Source: Rubripirellula reticaptiva (lineage in GTDB: Bacteria > Planctomycetota > Planctomycetia > Pirellulales > Pirellulaceae). From it: a stretch of DNA of 64,000 nt. Position 1 is the stretch's first letter, and each line of letters begins with the position of its first letter. Made by a program: the position numbers and the translations under genes. The notes under the pieces are model-generated. The model worked only from the letters and a program-made list of their open reading frames with translations, had not been told where the DNA came from and searched no databases. Of this stretch, positions 1,787 through 22,144 are shown piece by piece. The stretch spans positions 186,001-250,000 of the forward strand of contig NZ_SJPX01000005.1 of the NCBI RefSeq assembly GCF_007860175.1, in the 5' to 3' direction.

Positions 1787-2097
1787 GGGCAACCGCCAGG
1801 CCAACGTTCGAAACAATAAATAATTAAAGGCATACGGGCAAAGCCCCTGGCCTGAAATGCCACAATGTTGAAGGCATTGAGTATAGCAGGCCCAAAGCTG
1901 ACCACTCAAACAGACGACACTTTGTCATCGCATCTCTTGGACCTGTGCACCCCCCCATTGTATAGGTTCCCAGCGAACCGCAATGTGTTATCGCTCGGAT
2001 TCTCGAGCGAATTGCAAAGCAGCGACTCGCCTTGGCGGGTGAAACGTGGTGGTGACGCCGTGGTGGTGGCTGGTGGCTGGTGGCTTGGGGGTGGTGG
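1787..2097. other. Intergenic region with a TGGTGGC simple repeat
   Basis: 311 nt between the stop of the phosphohexomutase and the sigma factor start. No gene is supported. The stretch 2045-2100 is a degenerate GTGGTGGC/TGGTGGC direct repeat that ends at the phosphohexomutase stop codon. The remainder should contain the promoter of the sigma/sensor pair, but no convincing -35/-10 pair could be picked by eye. Confidence 0.5.
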
Positions 2098-3438
2098 CTA
2101 GGCGAGTAGCTTTGCCGCCGCACACATGCCCTCGGCCTCGGCCTGCGATTCCGCTTCGGCGATGAACCGGACGATCGGCTCGGTATTGCTGCCGCGGACC
2201 AATAACCACTTGTCGTCCCAAGCAAGCCGCAGCCCGTCCCCGGTTTGCACTTTCGCGTCCGGGTATTGATCGGTCAGTTTCTTGAACAAGTCGGGCAGTC
2301 GATCGGCCGAAACCGTCGCTTTGTCTTTGTGGATGTGCAGCTTGGGCAGTCCATCGGCAAGCGTCGCGACCGATTTGCCCGTCGCGGTCATCAAATCCAA
2401 GATTTGCGCCATCCCGACAAAGCTGTCGCGGACATAACCGACTCGCGGGTCAATCGGACCGCCGTTGCCCTCGCCGCCGTACGCTGCTTTCTTGTCGATC
2501 ATCATGTCGGCGACGTTCGCTTCGCCAACCGAACTTCGATAGGATTCGACACCCGCGTCGCGAGCGATCCGTTCGCTCATCCCGCTGGTGGCTCCATTGA
2601 TCACGATCGGCCCCCGAGTCGCCTCGTCCGACATCGCTCGCAACACACATAGCGCCAACGTGTACTCTTCGCCCACGTACCGCCCGTCCGCGTCAACCAG
2701 CGCCAATCGGTCTGCATCCGGATCTTGGCAGAACCCAACGACGCATTTCTCGTCACGCACTCGCTTGGCAATCGCAGTCAAATTGGCGGCCGTCGGCTCG
2801 GGCTCGTGCGAGAACTTGCCATCGGGCGTGTCACCGACTGCGACGATTTGGCAACCGAGTGCTTTCAACAACCGCACGCCCAGCAGACTGCCCGCACCGT
2901 GATTGCTGTCGATCAGCACTCGATGGCCGGCTGCTCGGATCGCCAGCGTATCGACGGTCTCTAGAACCGCGCAAAGATGAGGTTCGTGCGGATCGGATTC
3001 TTCTGAGATCCGGCCAATCTGGTTGAACGGTTTGTAATCTGCTTCGCCAGCAAAGTAGGCATCACGAATCGCCGCCCCGGTGACCGCATCGAGCACTCGT
3101 CCGGTCGAACCAAACAACTTGATCCCATTGTAAGGCGGTGGATTGTGGCTGGCCGAGATCTGTACGGCACCGGCGGCCCCCCGTTGTCGCACCAAAACTC
3201 CGATCGTTGGCGTCGCCGCAACGTCGACATCAATACAGTCGCGCCCACACGCCGAAAGTGCCGCGATGATCGCGCGGCTAAGCATCGGCCCGGTATTACG
3301 CCCGTCGCGGCCGACGATGATCGGGCCGTCAGGCAATTTGCTGGCGAAAGCGGCGACGAACCGCATCGCGACTTCGGGAGTCAAGGTTTCGCCAACGATT
3401 CCACGCAGACCGCTAACGCTGATGATCAATTCGCTCAT
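2098..3438 (-). CDS. Phosphoglucosamine mutase / phosphohexomutase (GlmM-like)
   Basis: A 446-residue alpha-D-phosphohexomutase that interconverts sugar 6- and 1-phosphates in cell-wall and nucleotide-sugar synthesis. All family sites are visible: N-terminal SVSGLRGIVGETLTPE (8-23), the phosphoserine loop SASHNPPPYNG with catalytic Ser97, the Mg2+ loop DPDADR (239-244), the sugar-binding GGEGNGG segment, and the C-terminal phosphate-binding RGSNTEPIVR. The length is typical. It is transcribed away from a second, distantly related phosphohexomutase at 3560, with 121 nt of shared upstream DNA. Assignment to glucosamine, mannose or glucose phosphate cannot be settled from sequence alone. The TPEVAMRF N-terminus fits the GlmM/archaeal PMM branch. 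Confidence 0.9.
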   Translation of the reverse strand: MSELIISVSGLRGIVGETLTPEVAMRFVAAFASKLPDGPIIVGRDGRNTGPMLSRAIIAALSACGRDCIDVDVAATPTIGVLVRQRGAAGAVQISASHNPPPYNGIKLFGSTGRVLDAVTGAAIRDAYFAGEADYKPFNQIGRISEESDPHEPHLCAVLETVDTLAIRAAGHRVLIDSNHGAGSLLGVRLLKALGCQIVAVGDTPDGKFSHEPEPTAANLTAIAKRVRDEKCVVGFCQDPDADRLALVDADGRYVGEEYTLALCVLRAMSDEATRGPIVINGATSGMSERIARDAGVESYRSSVGEANVADMMIDKKAAYGGEGNGGPIDPRVGYVRDSFVGMAQILDLMTATGKSVATLADGLPKLHIHKDKATVSADRLPDLFKKLTDQYPDAKVQTGDGLRLAWDDKWLLVRGSNTEPIVRFIAEAESQAEAEGMCAAAKLLA

Positions 3439-3559
3439 GTTTTCGATACTTTCGAGTCACTTTGGGTGCCTTGGTTGCGACGACCGGCAGACTGCAAATA
3501 GAATCGCATCACTGCAACGTAACAAGGTCAGCGCAGCATCCCCCAATCTTGAAGATTCT

Positions 3560-5386
3560 ATGAGTATTGACGCAACCGTGCCCTCCTCTCTGTCCGCCGT
3601 CCAACAAGCCGTCACCGATGGCAAGCTGACTGCCGCCGCCGCCAAAAATATCGAAGCCTGGCTGACCGAAGACCGCTATGCCGAATATCGCGACGAAGTG
3701 ATCGAGCACATTGTCGCCGGCAAATGGCAAAAACTGGACGACGTTTTCTGGACGATCATCCCGTTCGGGACCGGTGGTCGCCGAGGCCGGATGTATTCGA
3801 TCGGGTCCAACGCGATCAACGATCGAACGATCGGGGAAAGTGCACAAGGATTGGCCGACTACGTGGTCGAATTCCACAAAGGCAAGAAAGACCTTTCCTG
3901 CGCGATCGCTTATGACACTCGGCACAAGTCACGTCACTTCACCGAATTGTGCGCCGGCATCATGGCCGCCGCTGGCATCAAGGTGTACTTGCTTGACGAC
4001 TATCGCGCGACGCCGCAATTGTCGTTCGCTGTCCGTTATAAAAAATGCGACTGTGGCATCATGGTCACGGCCAGCCACAATCCGCCCAGCGACAATGCCG
4101 TCAAGGTTTACTGGTCCAGCGGTGCCCAAGTCTTGCCGCCGCACGACAAAGCCATCATCGGCAAAGTCATGAACTGTCAACAAATTCGGTCGATGCCGTT
4201 CGACGAAGCCGTTGCCAAGGGGATGGTCGAAGTCGTCACCGAAGAAGTCGACAAGGCGTACTTCGATGCCGCCAGCAAGTGTGCATTCGAAGGTCCTCGC
4301 GACGTCAAGTTGCTGTACACACCGCTGCACGGTGTCGGCGCCGCAGCCGTTGTTCCGCTAGCGAAACGCGATGGATTCACCGACATCGAAATCTATGGAC
4401 CGCACGCCGAAAAGAGCGGTGACTTTCCGAACGTTCCTGGCCATGTCTCGAACCCCGAGAACGCTGCGATCTTTGACGAACCGATCAAGCACGCCCAAGC
4501 CCACGGCCAAAACTTGATTCTGGCAACCGACCCCGACTGTGACCGCATCGGTGTTGCCGCGCCCAAAACGATGGACACGGCGGGCCCGTGGCGAACATTT
4601 AACGGCAACGAAATCGGCGCAATTCTGGCCGAGTACGTGCTCAGCAAACGAAAGGCCGCCGGCACGCTGTCGCCACAGCACTACATCGTCAAGACGTTGG
4701 TAACAACCGAACTGACCCGCCGGATCGCCGAAGAGTACGGCGTTCGATGCGTCGGCGACCTGTTGGTCGGATTCAAGTACATCGCCGAAGTGATCGACCG
4801 CGAAGGTCCGGACCAGTTTGTCTACGGCACCGAAGAATCGCACGGATACTTGGTCGGCCAGTATTGCCGCGACAAGGACGGTGCGGTGGCGGCGATGTTG
4901 ATGTTCGAATTGGCTGCCGAATTGAAGGCACAGAACATTTCGATGCACGACTACCTGTGCGATCTGTTTCGCAAGCATGGCTATCACCGCGAAACGCTGA
5001 TCAACTTGGTGATGGAAGGCAGCGAAGGCATGGCCGCGATGCAGCGTCTGATGAAGTCGTTCCGAACCTCGCCGCCCGAATCGGTCGCCGGGATCAAGAT
5101 CGCGAAAGTACGCGATTATGCAGCGGGAACGATCACAGACACGGCAACCGGCAAGTCCGAAAAACTGGATGGCCCGACCGGTGACCTGATCATTCTGGAT
5201 CTGGCCGAAGAAGGAAATTACGTCGCCGTCCGGCCTAGCGGTACCGAACCGAAGATCAAACTTTACGTCTTCACGCGTTTGGAACCAGCCAAGTCGCAAG
5301 ATTTAGACGCCGCCGATTCTGTCCTAGGATCCCGGATCCAAACGCTCGAAAAAGACGTCCGCGCATACGCGGCAAAGAACGCGTAG
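3560..5386 (+). CDS. Phospho-sugar mutase (phosphoglucomutase/phosphomannomutase, PgcA-like)
   Basis: A 608-residue member of the alpha-D-phosphohexomutase superfamily, of the longer type with an N-terminal helical extension. Catalytic serine loop TASHNPPSDNAVKVY, metal loop DPDCDRIGVA, substrate loop GTEESHGYLVG and phosphate loop RPSGTEPKIKLYV are all present, so it should be active. The start is the ATG of MSIDATV; the frame extends upstream but there it only overlaps the divergent neighbour. It probably supplies glucose-1-phosphate or mannose-1-phosphate for polysaccharide or nucleotide-sugar synthesis. The other phosphohexomutase is divergent, so the 3439-3559 gap must hold both promoters. 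Confidence 0.92.
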   Translation: MSIDATVPSSLSAVQQAVTDGKLTAAAAKNIEAWLTEDRYAEYRDEVIEHIVAGKWQKLDDVFWTIIPFGTGGRRGRMYSIGSNAINDRTIGESAQGLADYVVEFHKGKKDLSCAIAYDTRHKSRHFTELCAGIMAAAGIKVYLLDDYRATPQLSFAVRYKKCDCGIMVTASHNPPSDNAVKVYWSSGAQVLPPHDKAIIGKVMNCQQIRSMPFDEAVAKGMVEVVTEEVDKAYFDAASKCAFEGPRDVKLLYTPLHGVGAAAVVPLAKRDGFTDIEIYGPHAEKSGDFPNVPGHVSNPENAAIFDEPIKHAQAHGQNLILATDPDCDRIGVAAPKTMDTAGPWRTFNGNEIGAILAEYVLSKRKAAGTLSPQHYIVKTLVTTELTRRIAEEYGVRCVGDLLVGFKYIAEVIDREGPDQFVYGTEESHGYLVGQYCRDKDGAVAAMLMFELAAELKAQNISMHDYLCDLFRKHGYHRETLINLVMEGSEGMAAMQRLMKSFRTSPPESVAGIKIAKVRDYAAGTITDTATGKSEKLDGPTGDLIILDLAEEGNYVAVRPSGTEPKIKLYVFTRLEPAKSQDLDAADSVLGSRIQTLEKDVRAYAAKNA

Positions 5387-5400
5387 CGGCAAGTTCGGGA

Positions 5401-5480
5401 ATAACTCCGGCATTCGCAAGCCCAAGATCACCTTCCCGCCCCGCGGGAGGGTAGATTCCCAACACTACTTCCGCATGATC
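5401..5480 (+). repeat. Dispersed 80-bp stem-loop repeat, copy A
   Basis: Begins ATAACTCCGGCATTCGCAAG. It contains a 9-bp stem (5431-5439 with 5443-5451, CCTTCCCGC/GCGGGAGGG, loop CCC) and ends TTCCGCATGATC. It matches the copy at 46410-46489 at about 46 of the first 52 positions by hand count, and the spacing from the stem to the end is identical (37 nt) in copies A, B and C. It lies between the phospho-sugar mutase stop and the convergent beta-propeller gene. Confidence 0.7.
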
Positions 5481-5524
5481 TCGTAGGAGCCCGTTCGCCT
5501 GCATCTGGCCAACGAATTAGACAA

Positions 5525-6757
5525 TCAGTCGACAGCGATGCAAGCGGCTTGTTCGGTGCTGCGCACAAACACCTTTCCATCACTGATCGCTGGCATCGAC
5601 CAGCACTTGCCGGTCAAAACGTCCTTGCGAGCGAGTTCGTGGTATCCCGATGGATCTGCTTTGACAATCGCGACTTCGCCGGCGTCTGAAAGCACCACCA
5701 ACTTGTCGCCTGCCAGGATACAGTTGCCCGGTCCAAACCCACGCTCGGCCCACTTGATTTCGCCGGTTGCCAATTCAACACATTGCAGCGGAGCGGTCCC
5801 GTACTTCTTGAATTCAAAGAGACCGTACAGGTGACCGTCGTGAACGACCGGCGTGCTCCAGTGATTCATCAACTCGTTTGACTTGAACCAGACTTCGTCC
5901 GCAATCGCGGTGCCGTTTTTCTTGAAAACGCCTGCGCCGACGCCGTAACCGGCTGAGCAGTAGACAAGATCACCATCGGTTACCGGCGAAGCTGCTGTCG
6001 ATGTACTGAACGGGAACTGCGCCCGCCACAGTTCTTTGCCCGAATTGGCGTCGACCGACACCAAACCCGATTTAGCAAAGAAGATCACCTCATCACCGCC
6101 ATCACCTTTAGCAACCGTGGGAGTTGCGTGCGTGATCGTTTCGTCACCCGATTCCCAGACATTCTTTCCGGTCGTCTTTTCAAACGCTAGAAACGACTTA
6201 CCCGCTCCGCCGCCGCCTACAATCACCAAGTCGCCAGCGATCACCGGTGATGTCGCGTTCAACCACGAAATGTTTCGGCCATCATATTCCTTGATGACGT
6301 CGCGTTTCCAAACGAGCTTGCCTGTCGCGGCATCAAAACACTGCAACAACATGTACGAATCGTAAACATAGACTCGGCCGTCATCGACCAAAGGTGTCGA
6401 GCGAGGTCCGTCGCCGCCACGGTTGTCTTTCGTGCCCGCACCGCCGCCGCCCTGCTCGTAAGCACTGCTACCCATCGGCACAGCCCACAACTCTTTCCCG
6501 TTGCTGGCGTCCATCGCCACCAGCGTTTCTTTTTCGTCGCGTCCGATGACCGTGAACGCACGACCGTCAGCGATCGCAAACGAACTGAACCCCAACGGAG
6601 CCGGCACGGTCCAAACGACGTTCAACGAATCACCGATCGACTCTGTTGATTTTCCATCGCCTTGGTTACCACGATACTGATGCCAATCTTCGGCTCTGGC
6701 GAACGACGCAGCCACGGCAACGGCGGTAGCTGCACAAGCAAAACGGAACAATTTCAT
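5525..6757 (-). CDS. Exported PQQ-like beta-propeller repeat protein
   Basis: 410 residues starting at MKLFRFACAATAVAVAASFA, a clear signal peptide cleaved after about ARA. The mature part begins DWHQYRGNQGDG, the usual start of planctomycete outer-membrane/periplasmic BamB-like or PQQ-like propellers. It has repeated blade motifs of the form A.D..TGK..W (for example CFDAATGKLVWKRD, AFEKTTGKNVWESG, SVDANSGKELWRAQ, CVELATGEIKWAE). The frame extends 17 codons upstream, but without a signal-like start. It could be a scaffold or an uncharacterised dehydrogenase-like protein; no catalytic residues are evident and no PQQ genes are nearby. The function is unknown beyond the fold. Confidence 0.82.
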   Translation of the reverse strand: MKLFRFACAATAVAVAASFARAEDWHQYRGNQGDGKSTESIGDSLNVVWTVPAPLGFSSFAIADGRAFTVIGRDEKETLVAMDASNGKELWAVPMGSSAYEQGGGGAGTKDNRGGDGPRSTPLVDDGRVYVYDSYMLLQCFDAATGKLVWKRDVIKEYDGRNISWLNATSPVIAGDLVIVGGGGAGKSFLAFEKTTGKNVWESGDETITHATPTVAKGDGGDEVIFFAKSGLVSVDANSGKELWRAQFPFSTSTAASPVTDGDLVYCSAGYGVGAGVFKKNGTAIADEVWFKSNELMNHWSTPVVHDGHLYGLFEFKKYGTAPLQCVELATGEIKWAERGFGPGNCILAGDKLVVLSDAGEVAIVKADPSGYHELARKDVLTGKCWSMPAISDGKVFVRSTEQAACIAVD

Positions 6758-6928
6758 GGTCAAAGCCTTTTCGGCGCTGGGCGAAAATGGTGGGAGACTT
6801 GAAAACACTCGGCTCGATCGATTTCAAGCTCTGTGGTTTCGGGCTCCGTAGTTTAGTAAAACCAGCCCGTCTTGGTTAGCCGTTTCGCGGCACCCCAAAC
6901 AATGAATCTCCACCAAGGAAACTGCCGC

Positions 6929-7372
6929 ATGGATCCGTTTTTAGAAGCCGCCATCGACGAAGCCCGCCAAGGACTTAGCGAAGAAGGCATCCCTATCGGC
7001 TCGGTGCTCGTCATCGATGGCGAAATCGTCGCCCGCGGCCACAACCGACGCATCCAAAAAGGCAGCGTGATCTTGCACGCCGAAATGGACTGTCTGGAAA
7101 AAGCCGGTCGACGAACCGCTGCGGATTACTCGCGGTCCATCCTGTACTCGACGCTGTCGCCGTGCGACATGTGCAGCGGCGCCGCCCTGCTGTACAAGAT
7201 CCCCAAAATCGTGGTCGGCGAAAACCGAACTTTCCAAGGCCCCGAATCCTACGTCCGCAGCCGAGGCGTGGACCTAGAGATCCTCGACGATCCTGACTGC
7301 ATCGCCATGATGCAGTCTTTCATCGCCGAGCGACCGGAACTGTGGAACGAAGACATCGGGCTGCCGAACTAG
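6929..7372 (+). CDS. Cytosine deaminase, fungal (Fcy1) type
   Basis: A 147-residue zinc-dependent CDA-superfamily deaminase. The HAE motif (LHAEMDCLEKAGR) supplies the zinc His and catalytic Glu, and the PCxxC motif (TLSPCDMCSGA) the two Cys ligands. From memory, the sequence resembles yeast cytosine deaminase Fcy1 far more than bacterial CodA or TadA: GHNRRIQKGS, LSPCDMC, VVGEN, and the C-terminal ERPELWNEDIG all have close counterparts in Fcy1. The length is close to the yeast enzyme (about 158). The start at 6929 is preceded by AAGGA at about 9 nt; an in-frame ATG at 6902 is also possible. It likely converts cytosine to uracil for pyrimidine salvage. The stop lies 3 nt from the convergent next gene. 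Confidence 0.88.
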   Translation: MDPFLEAAIDEARQGLSEEGIPIGSVLVIDGEIVARGHNRRIQKGSVILHAEMDCLEKAGRRTAADYSRSILYSTLSPCDMCSGAALLYKIPKIVVGENRTFQGPESYVRSRGVDLEILDDPDCIAMMQSFIAERPELWNEDIGLPN

Positions 7373-7375
7373 AGC

Positions 7376-7624
7376 CTATCGGGCGTTCTTCGCTCGCAGT
7401 TGTTCCAAGTAATCACAGCCCTTCCAGGTCAGAACCAACGGGCCTTTGTCGGCGAGCGTTTGGGAACCAAGTTCGACGAAGCCTGCATCGGCTAGCAGAT
7501 AGACGTGATCGACAACCGCATCACGTTCGTACCCTTCGATCGGAATCGTTCCTTTAAACATACGGTGGCCCTTGCTCTCGACAAACAACAGCAACTTGTA
7601 AACCAAAACCATGTCTCGCTTCAT
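7376..7624 (-). CDS. DUF2513-like small winged-helix protein
   Basis: 82 residues starting MKRDMVLVYKLLLFVESKGH, the start pattern of DUF2513 proteins, followed by an HVYLLADAGFVE segment resembling the recognition part of a winged helix, and an LTWKGCDYLEQLR wing-like end. The family is small, cytoplasmic and of unknown role, often phage- or island-associated. No mobile element is visible next to it here. It is convergent with the deaminase gene, with almost no spacer. Confidence 0.65.
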   Translation of the reverse strand: MKRDMVLVYKLLLFVESKGHRMFKGTIPIEGYERDAVVDHVYLLADAGFVELGSQTLADKGPLVLTWKGCDYLEQLRAKNAR

Positions 7625-8039
7625 CGAACGTCTTTCCAGTCAGGGCATCGCTCAGCATCAGACACGCGAAATCGCCATGTCTCAGGCCCCCTAGAGTCGG
7701 CCGGCACCAACAATCCCGCAAGTGCAATCACGACCGCCCATGACATCGACTCTACTCTTATCGTCACTCTTGTAGTCACGAACCTGCTATCCGCCTTGGC
7801 TCATTAGACACGGTCCGCGTCCTTGGCATGCCCCCCACCTAATTAGCAGCGACCTACAAGATCGCACTCAAAACAGCCTAAACAGGCCTTCCAAGCCCCC
7901 CCCCAGAAGTGACGCAACACGCGATTATTGTCGTAAATCGATGCCAATATCGTTGTTAACTCACGCAGCCTACGTAGACTGGGAGCTCTGTCGTCGATTG
8001 ACATCTGCCCACCTCACGGCCCCTTCGTGGAATTCAGTA
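7625..8039. other. Intergenic region without recognised gene
   Basis: 415 nt with no supported coding frame. It has several C-rich runs (around 7831-7837 and 7897-7904) and an AT-richer end before the PEP-CTERM gene. It presumably contains the divergent promoters of the flanking genes. No hairpin or repeat family member was recognised. Confidence 0.4.
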
Positions 8040-8735
8040 ATGCTTCGGACTTTGATTTGCTTTGGCTTGCTCGCTTGTTTTGCTTCGACTCAAGCATCCG
8101 CTGCGTTTGTTTTGGATTTCACATCCTCGACGGAGGGCTTTACGGCAAGCAGCGCTGCATCTGTCGGTTTTGCCGGCGGTGTATTGCAAGTCGTCGACGC
8201 GCCGGGCGGTGGTGAGTTCTTCGAAGACTCTTCCCGAGCAACGAGACTTGATTTTTCGTTTGCTTCACCGCTGGGGGTCGAGCTCAATGCCGCGGCAGCC
8301 AATGGTGGAACGATTTCATTCGATATCTCCATTGCCGAAAGCGACATCACTTGGGCCGGAGCTGGACGCCCTGGCCTGCTGGAAATGCAACTTACCCTCG
8401 ACAGTCCTGGTCGCGATACGGAAGTGGAGTTGTTATCCGTTCCTTCCGTTGGCGGAACAACAACGAGAACTTTTTCCGCGAATATCGTTCCTGGAATCGG
8501 CCAGCAGTTCAACGGCACCAACGACAGCATCAACTTCAATACGAGTCCGGGTTCTCTATACATCGGCCTCAAAGATCAAGGCGACTTTATAACGACTGCA
8601 ACCTTCTCGATCGACAACTTTACAGTCTCGGCGAATGCCGTCGCCGTGCCCGAACCTTCATCGCTTGCTCTGGTTGCCATCGGTGGCGTCGCAGTCGCTG
8701 CCCGTCGTCGCAAGTCAGTCAAAGCGTCCGTTTAA
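8040..8735 (+). CDS. PEP-CTERM sorting domain protein
   Basis: 231 residues. The N-terminal signal peptide starts MLRTLICFGLLACFASTQA; the middle is a beta-rich secreted region (FVLDFTSSTEGFTASSAASV..., probably jelly-roll or lectin-like). The C-terminus has the tripartite sorting signal VPEPSSLALVAIGGVAVAA followed by RRRK. Such signals are recognised by an exosortase, which is not encoded in this window. The frame is open for 33 codons upstream, but the signal peptide fixes the start. The ligand or function of the mature domain is unknown. Confidence 0.88.
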   Translation: MLRTLICFGLLACFASTQASAAFVLDFTSSTEGFTASSAASVGFAGGVLQVVDAPGGGEFFEDSSRATRLDFSFASPLGVELNAAAANGGTISFDISIAESDITWAGAGRPGLLEMQLTLDSPGRDTEVELLSVPSVGGTTTRTFSANIVPGIGQQFNGTNDSINFNTSPGSLYIGLKDQGDFITTATFSIDNFTVSANAVAVPEPSSLALVAIGGVAVAARRRKSVKASV

Positions 8736-8782
8736 TCAGCTAACTGAATACAGTCCTGAATCCGCTCCAGCGCCGGACCCTC

Positions 8783-10009
8783 ATGAAATCTTTGCTATCG
8801 GGCATCATCGCGACCGCGGTGATGCCCTTTCTTTTTGGTGCCTCGTCGCTCGTCATCGCTGACGAAACACCCACCATTTCAAATCGATCCGCGAAGGCTC
8901 GGTTTGATTACGAGTTGATTTTCGACAGCGACTTTTCGAAGCCACAGTCGATCGATCCCAAAGTAGGACAATGGCGCCGCGAGACGATGCGGGACAGCAA
9001 CAATTCCGGCCAACATCGTCAAGGGGAAGGTCGTCGACACGCTGCTTGGTATGACAAGTTCGCGGACGAAACGGCATCGGTTGAAGACGGTGTCCTGGTC
9101 CAACGCGGGTTCGTTGCCGATTCGGAACTAGACAATTTCACCAGCCGCGATTCCGGTGCAAAACCTCGCAACCATCTCTACACCGATCCCGATCCGAAAG
9201 ACGCGGCGCTCGGGGAAGTGAATTTCGCGGACTTCGAAATCCACACTTCCTGGTTCGATACGTTCGCCGCCAAGTCAGTCGATGGAAAGCAAGTTCCCGT
9301 CCTACGCACTGACGAACTGCTGCCGAAAGACAAGTTCTGGGGACAAGACGGAAAGACAGACACTCTGTCGCCCAACATCACTTTCGAGCCAGGGACGTTC
9401 TTCGAAATCACAGTCAATTTCGAAGACATGGAAGCACTCGCTCACCGTCATTCGTTTTGGCTGATGCCGGCGAGCGAACAGGGACTCGCCTACGACAACG
9501 ATCCAGCAAACGGACTGGAAATCGACATTTACGAACACGAAATGGTCGTGGCGAAAGACCAAGTTCCGGCCGGCGGCGACAATCCCAACGAAGTGATGCT
9601 GATGAAGTGCATCGGCGGAAAAACCACACCGCCTTCGACCTTCAATGAACTGCACCCCGACGGAAAAACATCGATTCATTCGCCGGGGATCAATCGAGGT
9701 TGGCACAAAATCGGATTTCTGTGGACCAACGAGGTGGTGATGTGGTTCATCGATGGACAAGCTGTCGTGCGAGATCGCAAGTTAGTACCGCAAGTGCCGA
9801 TGTACTTGATTCTCTCACGCGAGGCGAACACGGGTGCCGGACAATCCGGCGACGCACAAAACTTGAAAGCCGATGGTGACAAAATCCCCATCGATGCCGG
9901 CCTGTATGGTCGCAACGTTGCCACGCCAGCCAATCGCGACCTGATCAAACAAGGCCGTGACGAAGTGAAGGTAAGAAGCGTGAAAGCATGGAAACTGACA
10001 ACACGCTAA
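8783..10009 (+). CDS. Secreted GH16-like glycoside hydrolase
   Basis: 408 residues with a signal peptide (MKSLLSGIIATAVMPFLFGA...VIA). The middle carries the GH16 active-site signature ExDxxE as LEIDIYEHE, with nucleophile Glu, auxiliary Asp and acid/base Glu in the expected spacing, preceded by HRHSFWLMPAS. The C-terminal WHKIGFLWTNEVVMWFIDGQ block is the usual concanavalin-A-type beta-sandwich end. It probably cleaves an algal or bacterial beta-glucan-type polysaccharide (laminarin, agar or carrageenan class); substrate cannot be assigned. It lies 47 nt downstream of the PEP-CTERM gene on the same strand. Confidence 0.85.
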   Translation: MKSLLSGIIATAVMPFLFGASSLVIADETPTISNRSAKARFDYELIFDSDFSKPQSIDPKVGQWRRETMRDSNNSGQHRQGEGRRHAAWYDKFADETASVEDGVLVQRGFVADSELDNFTSRDSGAKPRNHLYTDPDPKDAALGEVNFADFEIHTSWFDTFAAKSVDGKQVPVLRTDELLPKDKFWGQDGKTDTLSPNITFEPGTFFEITVNFEDMEALAHRHSFWLMPASEQGLAYDNDPANGLEIDIYEHEMVVAKDQVPAGGDNPNEVMLMKCIGGKTTPPSTFNELHPDGKTSIHSPGINRGWHKIGFLWTNEVVMWFIDGQAVVRDRKLVPQVPMYLILSREANTGAGQSGDAQNLKADGDKIPIDAGLYGRNVATPANRDLIKQGRDEVKVRSVKAWKLTTR

Positions 10010-10071
10010 GAAAATAGTCGTTGCAACGCAAACTCGCAGGCTGCTTTTACGAGATCCGTCACTGCAAGTTC

Positions 10072-10998
10072 CTAAAACGCCGAGATCACTTCAAGTTCGG
10101 CTTTAGTAATCAACGACGCATAGACTTCGATGTCGATTTGTTCCGAGATGAAGTGAGTGCTGCCGTCGGCCAGATTGATTTGCAACCCGCCGGGGTGAAA
10201 CGAGTACGCTTCGTTGTTGTTGGTTTTGTTGATTGCCCATGGTCCCGAACAGCTCAAACCATCGTCGCTGAATCCATGCAGTGGGATAAAGTTCTGAGGG
10301 TCAGCCCAACCGCCACCCTTCGCTCGCCCATTGGCGACGTTCAGATTGCCGCAACCGTTGTCGTTCGTCGACGGTCCTAACCGGCCATTGACATAGAACT
10401 GGGGTCGACCGGCATCCTCGGTCAACAGCATCGTGTTTGACAATCCGTCGAAAACATCACGCATTCGCGTGACACTTCGGTTGATCAAACCAAATGGTTT
10501 CTTTCTCCGTTTGACGAACCCCGCGTTCATGATCGTCGACGTGACCACACCATGGGGAACATAATCCGTTGTGGCAGTCATGACTCCGCCACCCGCACGA
10601 TCGAGCAGCCCACTAATCGGCGTACTCGGGCACGTGTACGTCGACACCTTTTTATCAATCGTGTCATGGTTGCGACTGTTATTCCAATCGACACTGAAAT
10701 CATAGCTACTAAAAAGGTCAACACGTTCAAGAAACGGCATGATGGCAACAGCCCAAGTATGGCCGCGATTGGGCAAGGCTTGACGCGGAAACATCTTGTA
10801 CAGCGAATGGTAGTTCTGGGCGGCAAGGCCGATCTGTCGCATGTTGTTCGAACATGACATGCGACGCGTAGCTTCACGGGCCGCCTGAACAGCCGGCAAC
10901 AACAGCCCAATGAGCACTGCGATGATCGCAATCACCACCAGCAATTCGATCAGAGTGAATCCCACGCGTCGACTTCGAACGAGATTGCCAATCACCAA
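10072..10998 (-). CDS. DUF1559 prepilin-like protein with H-X9-DG C-terminus
   Basis: 308 residues. The N-terminus is type IV prepilin-like: [20 protein letters not shown] after a short basic leader, then [24 protein letters not shown], the DUF1559 signature. The C-terminal motif [12 protein letters not shown] matches H-X9-DG. Planctomycetes have large families of these pseudopilins, exported through a PilD-type peptidase. The translation start is TTG at 10998 or GTG at 10995; a GAGG sequence lies just upstream. No partner genes are adjacent, so it stands alone. Confidence 0.88.
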
Positions 10999-11143
10999 AA
11001 CCGTGCCTCACTCTACCGGTGAACCGAAGAACCCAGCCCAACAGTCTAACGCATCCGCGAACCGCTTTCGCGCAGCGAGTGCCTGAATAGCAGGAACCAC
11101 AAAGCTCGCCGAATGATTCGGTTAACACCGCATCATTGAAACG

Positions 11144-11755
11144 TCAATCCTGCACAGACGTCATTTGCATCGTATCAGCGATTCCATAAAAACGGTTCGC
11201 GCTGCGGCATCGTGGGATCGCGTACCACTGATCACCCAACTGTCCCACAACGATTCGAGATCCGTACTCGCGACCGTCGTATCCTTCTGCCACCACAGCA
11301 ACGCACATAAACTTTTCAGCGTAGTAAGTGCTCACCATTTCCAAACGCAAAGCGACAACTCGTCTGTCGTCGGGATCAAAGGCTTCACTTGCGACGACGC
11401 GCACAGGTCGATTCGGATTCATTCGCTTTGGCAATTCGTAGACCGTAAACGATTCCTCGCCGTGACTGAATTTGGTTTCATGCAGACACTGGGCAAACTT
11501 CTGCAGCGTGTCGACCGAACCGTCACATACACCCAAAAGCAGATGTCGAACAAAGTCTTTGGGTGATTCCATTGCACAGCCACGAAACAGAGCGGAGGCA
11601 GCATCTTCGGGGCTGGACGCGCCTTCGCGATCGAACGTAAACGGAGCGAGAATCGGGTCTGCGACTGCGGCATTCAAGCGAACCCCGTAGGTCATCGTGG
11701 CAGCAACAATCACGGCCATCACCGTGCATGCGATGGAAAAACTGCGGCGCTTCAT
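11144..11755 (-). CDS. Hypothetical exported protein
   Basis: 203 residues; not a family I recognise. The N-terminus MKRRSFSIACTVMAVIVAA is a signal peptide or membrane anchor, followed by the mature segment DPILAPFTFDREGASSPEDA. The rest is a soluble alpha/beta-like region with four cysteines or more (RGCAMES, GVCDG, QCLHE, MCVAV, PRCRS) that might form disulfides outside the cytoplasm. The start at MKRRSF is chosen because a 24-codon upstream extension lacks signal features. It neighbours a DUF1559 gene on the same strand with 145 nt between. Confidence 0.65.
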   Translation of the reverse strand: MKRRSFSIACTVMAVIVAATMTYGVRLNAAVADPILAPFTFDREGASSPEDAASALFRGCAMESPKDFVRHLLLGVCDGSVDTLQKFAQCLHETKFSHGEESFTVYELPKRMNPNRPVRVVASEAFDPDDRRVVALRLEMVSTYYAEKFMCVAVVAEGYDGREYGSRIVVGQLGDQWYAIPRCRSANRFYGIADTMQMTSVQD

Positions 11756-11976
11756 GGTTGTGATGCCCTTAAAAAAGTGAACAAACGACGCTTGTGTTCG
11801 CCCGACCGAAGCGAGCGACGATACCACGGAACTTTAACCGACAAGTGAACTCAAATGGGACAATTCAAAGTGTAAAGCAAAGATCAGACAATCGTGGCTT
11901 GGCGAACTGATGGGTATATTGATCGCTTCGCCGAAAATTTTCGGATGTGGTGGACCCTAGGAAGACCGAGAAATTG

Positions 11977-14900
11977 ATGCCAATCCCGAAGTGTTTGATT
12001 CGAAGCGCCGTTGGTTTCGGACTGTGGTTGGGAGTGATCGGTTGCTCAACATCTACCGTACCAACGCCCGACAAGGACTCCGCTGCTGCAAAAGTCAAAA
12101 CGCCGACTATCGAAAAGTCGGAATCCGTTGCCCCGCCACTCGGCGATCAGCCCCCATCAATCGACGTACTGATCCAATCGGCGGAAGAAGCTTTGGCCGC
12201 CGGCCAGTGGGACAAGGCCAGAGAATCGCTGCGGCGCGGACTACTGATCCAACCGGACAGTTCGCGGCTACGATTCTTGTCTGCTCAAGCCGAGGCGAAC
12301 GACGGAAACCTTGACGAAGCGATCGCGATTCTGGCTTCGATTGACAATAGCGATCCCGATTTTGGCATCGCCTCCCTGGGGCAAGCGGCACAGTGGTTGG
12401 CATCTGCAGGACGCGCGACCGAAGCCAGAAACATGTACGAAAAAACGCTCGAGTTAGCACCCGATGTCGACTTCCTGCGTCACCAGTACGCTGCGTTCCT
12501 GAACTTTGTCGGCTGGCGATACCGTGCCCGCGACGTGCTCGAGCCGCTTGTGAAGTCCGGGCAAGCTAACACGGCCGAACTTCGGTCTCTTTTGGACGTT
12601 TCGAATTCGTTTGCCGCGACCCAGGCGACTAGCACGAGCGGAACCGCCAACCGCGAGGGGCCGCTCAGCGAATCACTCGGACGGCTAAGCCATCGCCAGC
12701 CTCGGATCGCCATTGAGATTCTGCAAGCGATGTTGAAGCAAGGGTTGATGGATCGCGAATCGACAACCGACGCGGCAATCGCAGCCGGGTTTGCCGAGCT
12801 TCAACAGTTTGACGAAATGGCACAATGGCTCGACGACTCGTCACCGGACGTCACCAACAATCCGATGTACTGGCGAACGATCGGCGACCAGCGTTTCTTT
12901 GACGGCCGCGCTGACGAGGCCGTTGCGTGCTATCTGAAATCGATCGATGGCGACTGTACCAACCCGATTGTCTACGAACGCCTGACGGCCGCAATGCTGC
13001 GACTGGGCGACGATCCGTCCGCGCGACGCATCGACGGACATCGCGAATTGTTGCTGTCGATTTCACAAGTTGCCGAAGCGATCGTGACTCAAACACCAAG
13101 CGACGACAGCCTTGCCGTTGAATTGGCGGACAAGTTGGAACAAGCAGGCCAACCAGACCAGGCGGCCGCTTGGTTGTCGTGGTTTCGCACTGAGTATCCC
13201 GAGTTGGTGAATTCGGCTGCGTTCGATCGCGAGATCCTGCGGTTGAGGAGTATCGATGCCAACACTATCGAGACGCAGCGGTTTGTCGGAATCTCGCCGA
13301 AGGCCTATCCAGAACCGTCGGCGATCAAGCTACCTACAAACGATGGCTCTGCAACGAAAGAGTCTTTGGCAAATACCGACAAACGTCCATTCGTTCGGCA
13401 ACCAACGCTCGCCACCTTCGTCGATGTTGCTGAAAGCACCGGTTTAGTTCATGAGTATAAGAACGCCAATCCAAAACGCCTCTACAACTTCCGCATCTTC
13501 GAAGGCTTGGGTGGCGGCATCGCAGCGTTTGACTTTGACCGCGACGGACGCGTCGATTTCTATTGCAGCCAGGCCGGTTGCGAGCCGCCGTTAGGTCTTA
13601 GCAGCGAGTCCAATCAACTCTACCGAAACCTTGACGGACACTTCCGCAATGCCACCGAAATCGCCTCACTCGTCGACCGAAACTACACCCAGTGCGTAAC
13701 GACGGGCGACATCAACCAAGACGGTTTTGATGACGTGCTTGTTGGAAATTTGGGTTTCAATCGCATGTTGATCAACCAAGGTGACGGCACCTTTCGCGAC
13801 ATCAGCGAGTCGGTTGGCTGGACAAACCCCGATACGGCCCATTGCACGATGGGGCTAGCAATCGCGGACATCACAGGCGATGCGATTGCCGATGTAGTCG
13901 AAGTCAACTACGTCAATTCGCCGTTGATGTACGAACCGTCGCCAGTCGGGCCTGATGGTGGGCTCGTTAAAATACCAGGGCCACTGCACTTTCCCGCCGA
14001 GGTGGACCGTCTTTGGATTCAAACACACGATGGCAAGTTTGAGCCAATGAATTTGGGCGAGACCGCTACGTCGGCCGGCCACGCACGAGCGGCCGAGTTT
14101 GGTGACTCTGCGAATCCAGGACTGGGAATGATCATCAGCAACTTTGACGACGATCCAGCCAATGAAATTTTCGTCGCCAATGACGCGCGGCCCAACCAAT
14201 TGTGGAAGCAGCAGCAATCGGCGAAGCAGCTAAGTGCTGACGACAACGAGTTGTCCTTCGAAGACATCGCCGTTGCCCGCGGTTGTGCCGTCAGTTCGCG
14301 AGGCGAGGCGTGTGCCTGCATGGGTGTGGCGTGGGCCGACTTTGATCGCAACGGATCGCCAGACATGATCATCACCAATTGGTTCGACGAATGGCTGAAT
14401 TTCTACCTGGGTGACTCAAGCGGCAACTTTCGTGATGTCGCACCGCGATTCGGCTTAGACAAACTAAGCGAAAACTTACTCGGGTTTGGTTGCCAGGCAA
14501 TCGACTTTGACAACGACGCGACCGTTGATGTCTTTGTCGCCAATGGTCATATCGACAACGTCGCGGGCGCTAAAACTGCGTTGGCGATGCCTGCTCAATT
14601 GATCCAAAACCTTGGTGATCGATTCTTGTTAGCCGAGCAGTCGGCCGAAACGTTTTGGCAGCAAAACCATGTGGGACGGGCTGCGATCACCGCCGACCAC
14701 AATCGCGACGGACAAATGGACATCGCGGTGGTCGACCTGCTGGCGCCGGTCGCCTTGTTAGAAAACCAAACACAAACCAACAACCACTGGATCCAGTTCG
14801 TGATTGTCGGCGTCGAAAGCGAACGTGGGGCGATCGGCACACGAATCGAAGTGTCGCAGGGAACCGAAAAACAAGTTGCCGTCACGGCAACCGGCGACGG

Positions 14901-19803: not shown

Positions 19804-20973
19804 TTACTGCTGGCTTTCGCCGAAATAAGTTGCCAGCACGTCGTTCCATTTGGGGCTGGACGTTTGACGCAGCAAGACTTGATTGATGGGTTCGCGCAGC
19901 GGACTGTCGCTCGGCAATGCGAACGCGTAACTCTGCCGCTCGAATGTGGTTGGCAACACGTAGGCGTCGCCCGACCATTTTCGATAGGTCTCGTGCTGCA
20001 AGATCGGCGCGTCGTAAACGACGGCGTCACATTGGTTGGCCACCAGACTGGTCAGTGCCGAGTCAACGTTGGGAAATCCGGCGAACAAGATATGCCGAGA
20101 CCGCAGATAATCGGCCGACGTGGAACCGTTGACTGTTGCGACTTTCACTCGCGACAAATCGGCGGGGCCGCTGATGCGTGATCTCAACTCCGTCAACGTC
20201 AGTGCCGACGTGACCGCCGCGGTGAAACCAGCGATGATGAACAGACCGGCGAACATCCAAATCAATCCGATCAATCGACCGCCCAGCGTCCTGGGTACTT
20301 TGTCACCATAGCCGACGGTCGTGATCGTCACCGCCGCCCACCACATGCCGGCAGCGATACCTCGAACCCAACCTTTGTCGAACTGCTCGCGATTCGCCTT
20401 ACGCTCGAACAGGTAGATTCCCACCGCGCTGACAAACATTGCCAAAACCAACCCAGCAACAATGCGGATGAACGTCGGTGAGAAGACTGCGTCTAGGATT
20501 CCGAACCATCCGGATCTGCGTTGCTTCGCACCGACCGCAATGCCCAAACCCGAGGTGTGAAACGAGTGCGTGAAGTCCATGCGTTTTTCACGTTCATAGT
20601 TGACCGTGATCGCAGCGGCGGCCAAGTCGACTTCCGCCGCCTCGACGGCGTCAAGCATCTCGCCAAGCGACAATGGCCGGAAGTCGATTTCAATGGTGTG
20701 GCCAGATTCGATTTCCAGTTCGGCTTTGACCTCACGCATCAAATCGACGCTGATGCCGGTCCATTGACCGTCGTCGCTAAGCATCGCAAACGGAGGGACC
20801 TCGCGGACAGCGACACGTAGCGTTTCTGGTACTCCCAACCGGACCGGATCATCAGTAGGACCGTTGTCGCGAATGTTATCCTGAGCCAGCCCGATCGCCT
20901 GCGCAAAAAGGACTACGCCTAAAAACGTAATACAGACGCTTACGGTGTTCGCCTCGATTGGACTGCCTCGCAT
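19804..20973 (-). CDS. Ionotropic glutamate receptor-like channel with K+ filter
   Basis: 389 residues with GluR0-like order: signal peptide (1-30), ligand-binding lobe S1 (50-150), membrane helix M1 (169-189), pore loop with filter TTVGYG (218-223), M2 (232-255), then lobe S2 (262-389). Likely ligand residues: Arg128 in YEREK (the alpha-carboxyl-binding Arg of iGluRs), the GSTSADY segment (283-289), and Asp321 in VVYDAPIL (aligned with the amino-group-binding acid). It should form a ligand-gated potassium channel with an extracytoplasmic amino-acid-binding domain. The stop of the upstream paralogue is 4 nt before its ATG. The ligand is not predictable. Confidence 0.88.
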   Translation of the reverse strand: MRGSPIEANTVSVCITFLGVVLFAQAIGLAQDNIRDNGPTDDPVRLGVPETLRVAVREVPPFAMLSDDGQWTGISVDLMREVKAELEIESGHTIEIDFRPLSLGEMLDAVEAAEVDLAAAAITVNYEREKRMDFTHSFHTSGLGIAVGAKQRRSGWFGILDAVFSPTFIRIVAGLVLAMFVSAVGIYLFERKANREQFDKGWVRGIAAGMWWAAVTITTVGYGDKVPRTLGGRLIGLIWMFAGLFIIAGFTAAVTSALTLTELRSRISGPADLSRVKVATVNGSTSADYLRSRHILFAGFPNVDSALTSLVANQCDAVVYDAPILQHETYRKWSGDAYVLPTTFERQSYAFALPSDSPLREPINQVLLRQTSSPKWNDVLATYFGESQQ

Positions 20974-20977
20974 CGAT

Positions 20978-22144
20978 TCATTCTCCTAGATAGCGATAGA
21001 CAAGTTCATCCCATGAATCGCTCTCGCGAAAACGCAGCAACTCTTCGTTGAAGCGTTTCCGCAGCTCGCTATCCCTCGGCAGCGCGATCGCATACTCCTG
21101 GACATTGAATAAGACGGGCAAAACGTCGATTCGGTTTGCGAACTCGTCACTTGCCAAATACTTTAACAGCGCGGCGTCATAAACCACGGCATCGGCGTTG
21201 CCAGAATCGACCGCACCGATTGCAGCACGAGGTGACTCGTAAGCACGAAAGAAGATGCGACGTTGACGAAGATAATCAGCACTCGTGCTCGCATCGACCG
21301 TCGCCACTCGCACATGATGCAGGTCCGTCGACCGATTGATTCCAACATCGAGCTGCCCGACCGTCAGCACAGATGTGATCACGCCCGTCAGAATCGATAG
21401 CACGATCAAACTGGCGAACATCGCCAGCGTCGCCAGCAAACGCCCCATCATGCTAACTGGAATGATGCTCTTGTTTCCGAGCAGCAAAATGATCGACCAC
21501 CAAATGCCCATGCTTAGGCCTTGTCGGCGCTTGCCACCGAACATCGACGTGTTGGACTTGCGTTCGAACACCCAAAACAGAAATCCGCAAACCGCAACGG
21601 TCAAAACCATTGCGGCGACAATCTTCAACAAGCGACTTGAGACAATGCGTTTGAGCACGTTCCAAGGGCTCGAATGATCGCGCGTGCTGATCGCGATCCC
21701 CAGCCCGGTCGAGTAATGCGGATGGCAAAAATCGACGTGTTCGAGTCGTTCCGACGTGACGCTAATCGCTGCGACGGCAGCATCCAATTGCCCCTCTTCC
21801 AATCCCTGCAACATTTCGCCAAGCGTCAGCTCCTGAAACTCGTATTCCAGTTTCAGTTCATGGGCCAAGTGTTCCCAAAGTTCGATGCTGATTCCAGCCC
21901 ACGAACCGTCAGAGTTCTTGATCGCAAACGGAGGACTTTGCTTGGTGCCAACTCGCAAGACGACAGGTTCGCCAACCTTTTCTGAGACAACGATCGACTC
22001 GGTTGCTTCTTGGGCGCCGGCTTCGATGCAACTACCGAACGCTCCGATTAGCAACGTCGCAATTAGCAACGTCGCAATTGGAAGCCAACGCAGCTTGGAC
22101 AGGATCATTGCAGTCTCTGGCATGGTAGTGAAATCGACGAGCAT
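20978..22144 (-). CDS. Ionotropic glutamate receptor-like protein with altered pore
   Basis: 388 residues, same order as its downstream paralogue: signal peptide, S1 lobe (60-155), M1 (174-193), pore loop, M2 (235-260), S2 lobe. Ligand residues are kept (Arg133 in SERLE, DASTSADY at 284-291, Asp323 in VVYDAALL). The pore loop reads WWSIILLLGNKSIIP: the TVGYG potassium filter is gone and the loop is two residues shorter, which resembles eukaryotic iGluR pore loops in lacking the signature. It may be a non-K+ channel subunit, a heteromer partner or a non-conducting sensor. The start is uncertain: ATG at 22144, 22123 or 22108 all give a signal peptide. Confidence 0.82.
   Translation of the reverse strand: MLVDFTTMPETAMILSKLRWLPIATLLIATLLIGAFGSCIEAGAQEATESIVVSEKVGEPVVLRVGTKQSPPFAIKNSDGSWAGISIELWEHLAHELKLEYEFQELTLGEMLQGLEEGQLDAAVAAISVTSERLEHVDFCHPHYSTGLGIAISTRDHSSPWNVLKRIVSSRLLKIVAAMVLTVAVCGFLFWVFERKSNTSMFGGKRRQGLSMGIWWSIILLLGNKSIIPVSMMGRLLATLAMFASLIVLSILTGVITSVLTVGQLDVGINRSTDLHHVRVATVDASTSADYLRQRRIFFRAYESPRAAIGAVDSGNADAVVYDAALLKYLASDEFANRIDVLPVLFNVQEYAIALPRDSELRKRFNEELLRFRESDSWDELVYRYLGE
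22047..22076 (-). repeat. Tandem 15-bp duplication in signal peptide
   Basis: Two exact copies of ATTAGCAACGTCGCA (22047-22061, 22062-22076). It encodes the repeated ATLLI in the hydrophobic core (LPIATLLIATLLIG) of the altered-pore receptor's signal peptide. It is in frame, so it only lengthens the core. Confidence 0.8.

Follow-up and report, generated by a model that had tools for sequence, protein, structure and literature searches.

Prokaryotic ionotropic glutamate receptors have been divided into Group 1, which has a K+ filter, and Group 2, which has none (Ger et al. 2010, PMC2950845). GluR0 of Synechocystis (Slr1257), of the Group 1 kind, is reported as a K+ channel of inverted topology and was assayed by the growth of an E. 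coli strain deficient in K+ uptake (PMC13099474). In such receptors an Arg in the S1 part of the binding domain contacts the alpha-carboxyl of the ligand and an Asp in S2 contacts its alpha-amino group (PMC2950845). By a word search, Ger et al. make no mention of a partner gene for the Group 2 receptors, nor of planctomycetes, Rhodopirellula, tandem or adjacent genes, an operon or a heteromer (PMC2950845). No paper on a receptor pair of the kind described below was found in searches of open-access papers, and we therefore take the receptor type to be known and its two-subunit arrangement to be new. The locus bears on an open question, the step from a K+-selective prokaryotic receptor to the cation-permeable, often heteromeric glutamate receptors.

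The window is the whole stretch of 64,000 nucleotides of Rubripirellula reticaptiva that was analysed. It carries two receptor genes, A followed by B, on the minus strand, with 4 nt (20974-20977) between the TGA of A and the ATG of B; the tandem pair and its 4-nt gap had been called in an earlier note on this DNA, and coordinates, strand and gap were all confirmed. The two products are 38% identical across 342 alignment columns. When the window's genome was searched with B, A and B were found together with one weak pore-only match. The features of the pair are as follows.

20978-22144, minus strand: gene A, receptor subunit without a K+ filter, 388 aa (P0001)
21746-21748, minus strand: R133 of A, expected alpha-carboxyl contact, conserved in both types (role from PMC2950845)
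21467-21487, minus strand: pore loop of A, residues 220-226, LLLGNKS (from sequence and alignment)
21176-21178, minus strand: D323 of A (VVYD), expected alpha-amino contact, conserved in both types (role from PMC2950845)
20983-20987, minus strand: AGGAG inside the last codons of A, likely ribosome-binding site of B (from sequence)
19804-20973, minus strand: gene B, receptor subunit with a K+ filter, 389 aa (P0002)
20590-20592, minus strand: R128 of B, expected alpha-carboxyl contact, conserved in both types (role from PMC2950845)
20302-20322, minus strand: K+ selectivity filter of B, residues 218-224, TTVGYGD (from sequence; identical in the 18 B rows aligned)
20011-20013, minus strand: D321 of B (VVYD), expected alpha-amino contact, conserved in both types (role from PMC2950845)

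Both genes had been assigned the GluR0-type build S1-M1-pore-M2-S2, and domain searches, structure models and fold comparison bear this out. The Pfam families SBP_bac_3, Lig_chan and Lig_chan-Glu_bd score above cut-off in A and B, and in the AlphaFold2 models of the single chains (mean pLDDT of 82.4 for A and 87.4 for B) the two halves of each binding domain flank M1, the pore helix and M2. A helix of low confidence is predicted at both N-termini, where the earlier note had placed signal peptides. In Foldseek the top PDB matches of A and B are AMPA-receptor chains, aligned over the ligand-binding domain (LBD) and the transmembrane domain at a TM-score of about 0.5; by sequence, the best PDB match for each is the binding domain of a Nostoc receptor (2pyy). 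Judged from protein length and the models, neither protein has a domain ahead of S1 or another long helix behind S2, i.e. the N-terminal domain (NTD) and M4 are absent in both. The ligand-holding pair of S1 Arg and S2 Asp, said earlier to be kept in both genes, is found in A (R133 and D323) and in B (R128 and D321), and the Arg and the VVYD Asp are kept in at least 95% of the 23 A rows and 29 B rows of the alignment.

The two genes part company in the pore, where the earlier note had described them as unlike: B has a K+ filter and A has none at all. B reads TTVGYGDKVP where A reads LLLGNKSIIPVS, and the TVGYG filter of GluR0 and Group 1 is present in B and missing from A. The K+-type pore family Ion_trans_2 is recognised in B only, at 53.3 bits, and gave no match in A at E <= 0.1 (Pfam). 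The pore loop of A is two residues shorter than that of B, and its K225 aligns with G223 of B, the second Gly of GYG, each being conserved in at least 95% of rows (23 A and 29 B). The motif L-[LF]-G-[NH]-K occurs in 23 out of 23 A genes; together with the missing filter, this constancy indicates that the filter was lost in A and a constant replacement kept. A and its K+-filter partner are under purifying selection: dN/dS lies at 0.045-0.090 for A and 0.061-0.156 for the partner in five genome comparisons, which are partly non-independent (three genomes come from one group) and of which G000-G001 is near saturation (dS 1.7). A sixth comparison (G354-G797, A only) was saturated. Receptor-like genes of another planctomycete family, f8 (L074:4450-8034 and L072:2313-5660, both minus strand), have pore motifs such as ITGGCENK and share a single reading frame with preceding ABC-2 membrane and CAAX-protease (Rce1-like) domains, and a receptor-like gene of an alphaproteobacterial MAG (L087:5992-6981, plus strand) reads AQAAAADKAP where the K+ filter is expected.

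Sets of 40 relatives and of 396 genomes of the order, 392 of the phylum, 241 of the family and 397 of the class were searched for the pair. The sets overlap, so that 1505 genome searches represent fewer distinct genomes; the order, phylum and class sets are samples of larger groups, and in these and the family set 4 to 9 candidates were scored per genome, so that second copies may be missed. A is present in 23 distinct planctomycete genomes. In 20 of them a K+-filter receptor gene adjoins it, 18 in the order of the window (G000, the window's own genome, and G001, G048, G082, G117, G204, G306, G354, G391, G393, G559, G695, G821, G854, G887, G888, G889 and G890) and two with the K+-filter gene upstream of A (G1047 and G1129). 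Two further genomes (G373 and G625) have a K+-filter receptor elsewhere, unlinked to A. An A-type gene beside a K+-filter gene in 20 genomes indicates that the arrangement in the window is not due to chance, and the pair recurs in other genera and families. Of the checks proposed in the earlier note, most came out in favour of its reading. A one-genome accident is rejected from the searches of the order, phylum, family and class sets. A scan of named genomes with two short patterns, by which divergent A genes may be missed, gave 12 loci, ten of them A-type and all ten within the 23 genomes; the carriers are Blastopirellula marina DSM 3645, Stieleria tagensis, Stieleria sedimenti, Roseiconus nitratireducens, Rhodopirellula sp. 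JC639 and SM50, Botrimarina colliarenosi, strain TBK1r and two MAGs.

The strict B clade comprises 29 rows from 28 genomes, 19 of which also have A, while nine (G102, G330, G348, G149, G141, G072, G786, G874 and G877) are without it by the A profile. Of the 241 family genomes 16 have A, 20 have strict B and 15 have both, a co-occurrence with a hypergeometric probability of 9e-19, relatedness being ignored. The pair is present in one of the 21 other genomes of the window's genus; the remaining 20, some of which are incomplete (down to 66%), gave no A-profile match at E <= 1e-50, so that both genes are missing there within the reach of this search. The exception to pairing is G797, whose draft assembly of about 200 contigs has a completeness rating of 99%. 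In it A stands mid-contig and B is absent; a B-profile search of this genome returned its A only. That gene (L184:5595-6749, plus strand) is an open frame followed by a 763-aa frame, and is the sole A found without B in its genome.

Tight spacing recurs together with the pair. With starts read from the sequence, a possible start of B lies -4 to +4 nt from the stop of A in 15 of the 18 A-B pairs, and a Shine-Dalgarno (SD)-like stretch in the last codons of A precedes the near start, likewise in 15 of 18; the spacing is looser in G048, G082 and G695. Of the translational coupling suggested earlier, the tight and recurrent spacing stands, but co-translation is not obligatory, since A and B are non-adjacent in G373 and G625.

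The surroundings of the pair are less constant. By families assigned from representative proteins, 11 of the 20 adjacent pairs have CorA beside the K+-filter gene and on its strand. In nine, A is immediately preceded by a PP2C phosphatase with a cNMP-binding domain; an MscS-type large channel stands further upstream in eight, and MgtE after CorA in five. Neither CorA nor PP2C was seen in seven of the 20, the window's pair included (some stretches stop at contig ends), and since A and B stay together in these, the A-B link is the most constant one of the locus. The best matches in the window's genome to the linked PP2C (36% identity) and CorA (35%) both lie elsewhere in the genome. CorA also adjoins B in four of the nine genomes with B but no A (G330, G149, G141 and G072), which ties CorA to B rather than to A. 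The gene order MscS-type large channel, PP2C-cNMP, A, B, CorA, MgtE is seen at L056 (G306, 1945-12000) and recurs in L057, L190, L191 and L192; this resembles an operon for ion balance in which the receptor pair stands mid-way. Such neighbours (CorA, MscS-type channel and PP2C-cNMP) suggest that the pair may serve ion or turgor balance, but they accompany some pairs only and are lacking at the window's pair. G393 carries two loci: L047, with Msc, PP2C, a degraded A (4329-4960), an intact B and CorA, and, elsewhere in the genome, an intact A-B pair.

A receptor tree was built from 78 rows of 58 loci, leaving out L067, L069, L071, L074, L075, L076, L130 and L197, which hold receptor genes of other types, and many further f8 matches. 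In it A forms one clade (100/99) among mostly K+-filter planctomycete receptors, and strict B forms another (100/100). The K+-filter partner in G1047 and G1129 belongs to another K+-filter clade outside strict B; as it also lies upstream of A, A adjoins K+-filter receptors in two arrangements, and its partner is not one fixed gene. The partnerless A of G797 has the longest branch (0.40) in its 17-row subclade.

The mirror-tree comparison covered 19 genomes, without G1047, G1129 and G625, whose partner comes from another clade, and without the partnerless G797. In tree distances A and B correlate at r 0.86, as against 0.18 (A) and 0.33 (B) with rpoB, and the partial correlation of 0.87 was reached by none of 5000 permutations. 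Without near-duplicates and G373 the correlation is 0.90 (13 genomes) or 0.92 (10 genomes). G559, labelled as same class only, is separated from G354 by 0.37 in A and 0.34 in B, as against 1.36 in rpoB. The agreement of the A and B trees, set against their poor match to rpoB, indicates that the pair has been transferred between lineages as a unit. The two phylogenies, whose co-evolution the earlier note had proposed to test, co-vary; physical linkage alone would give matching trees, so that they argue only weakly for contact between the proteins. For the unlinked genes of G373, distances to other genomes differ between A and B.

We propose, with a probability of roughly 55%, that A and B combine as the subunits of a single cation channel gated by amino acids, in a mixed tetramer whose conduction is altered. 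From one message and by coupled translation, the two proteins would be made together and assemble, each subunit bringing its own clam-shell binding site. The amino acid bound is probably glutamate or one related to it, and the pore would open when the shells close. B alone would form a K+-selective channel like GluR0. In the mixed pore the shorter loop of A, unable to form the GYG filter, would replace some of the four filter loops, and strict K+ selectivity would probably be lost or conduction changed; as a modifying subunit, A would depend on a partner with a K+ filter. We infer co-assembly because a mixed tetramer is the simplest reading of three observations: A depends on such a partner, the two genes are tightly spaced, and the odd loop of A is constant. 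The dependence is seen in a K+-filter receptor accompanying A in 22 of 23 genomes, adjacent in 20, set beside the occurrence of B without A in nine of 28, and in A adjoining two different K+-filter clades in opposite orders. The near start of B (-4 to +4 nt) and the SD-like site before it in 15 of 18 A-B pairs, the replacement motif in all 23 A genes, the dN/dS of A, the agreeing trees, the constancy of the A-B link within the locus, and the channel frame and ligand contacts that are intact in both proteins point the same way. The proposal is weakened by A without B in G797, by the unlinked genes of G373 and G625, by the unequal A and B distances of G373, by a partner that is not fixed, by the looser spacing in G048, G082 and G695, and by linkage as a sufficient explanation of the matching trees.

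An operon of two independent homomers would appear much alike, and the same observations could be read as two separate homotetramers encoded together, B4 being an amino-acid-gated K+ channel and A4 a channel not selective for K+, by which one signal would shift the membrane potential differently. Each protein looks complete, with a binding domain, M1, pore helix and M2, G797 retains A without B, and filterless Group 2 receptors are known in bacteria with no partner reported (PMC2950845). Separate channels would have no need of the K+-filter partner that goes with A in 22 of 23 genomes, however, and A4 would bring four invariant Lys into the pore loop, which seems unfavourable for a cation channel; we regard this reading as the main rival of the mixed channel, though less likely. 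It appears more improbable still that A is a dampening or silent subunit that joins B and cuts or tunes K+ flow with no non-selective pore. The observed dependence on a K+-filter partner speaks for this reading too, and K225, aligned with filter residue G223 of B, could block K+ flow, but A has retained ligand contacts of its own, and all that was measured would fit this and the mixed channel alike. A reading of A as a K+-filter receptor duplicate in decay, kept beside B by chance, could draw on its lost filter and the degraded copy at L047 of G393, but is rejected as most improbable by the low dN/dS in five comparisons, the single clade (100/99) and the motif constant in 23 of 23, and G393 itself keeps another intact pair.

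On the mixed-channel proposal, we suggest more tentatively that a GluR0-like receptor selective for K+ may be turned by a dedicated filterless subunit into a cation channel with another selectivity, a solution that might have arisen independently of animal NMDA receptors and been passed between planctomycete lineages as a two-gene unit, often near genes for CorA, MgtE and mechanosensitive channels. It would indicate a planctomycete ligand-gated channel system tied by gene order, in some genomes, to Mg2+ and mechanosensitive transport. A natural pair that is 38% identical, with and without the K+ filter and lacking NTD and M4, would make mixed assembly and selectivity testable in about 390 residues per subunit.

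Among known systems, GluR0 and Group 1 share their build with A and B, and B also has their K+ filter and both ligand contacts. The GluR0 binding domain (1iit, 1ii5) is among the PDB sequence matches of A; membership of A in Group 1 is rejected, as it has LLLGNKS instead of a K+ filter. GluR0 is described as a single K+ channel (PMC13099474), whereas here a filterless second subunit is encoded alongside. The Nostoc punctiforme entry 2pyy holds the binding domain only and is silent on pore and pairing. Group 2 of Ger et al. shares with A the build, the missing K+ filter and the kept Arg and Asp (PMC2950845); A fits this group by its filterless build, and sits among planctomycete K+-filter genes in a tree made without cyanobacterial or proteobacterial Group 2 sequences. 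The likeness to animal NMDA receptors drawn in the earlier note holds as an analogy: animal NMDA and AMPA receptors have the fold of LBD and pore domain in common with A and B, which lack their NTD and M4, and B, unlike them, has a true K+ filter. The pair is therefore rejected as NMDA receptors proper and offers at most a likeness of working, in that unlike subunits with unlike pore loops would be combined here too if the heteromer reading is right.
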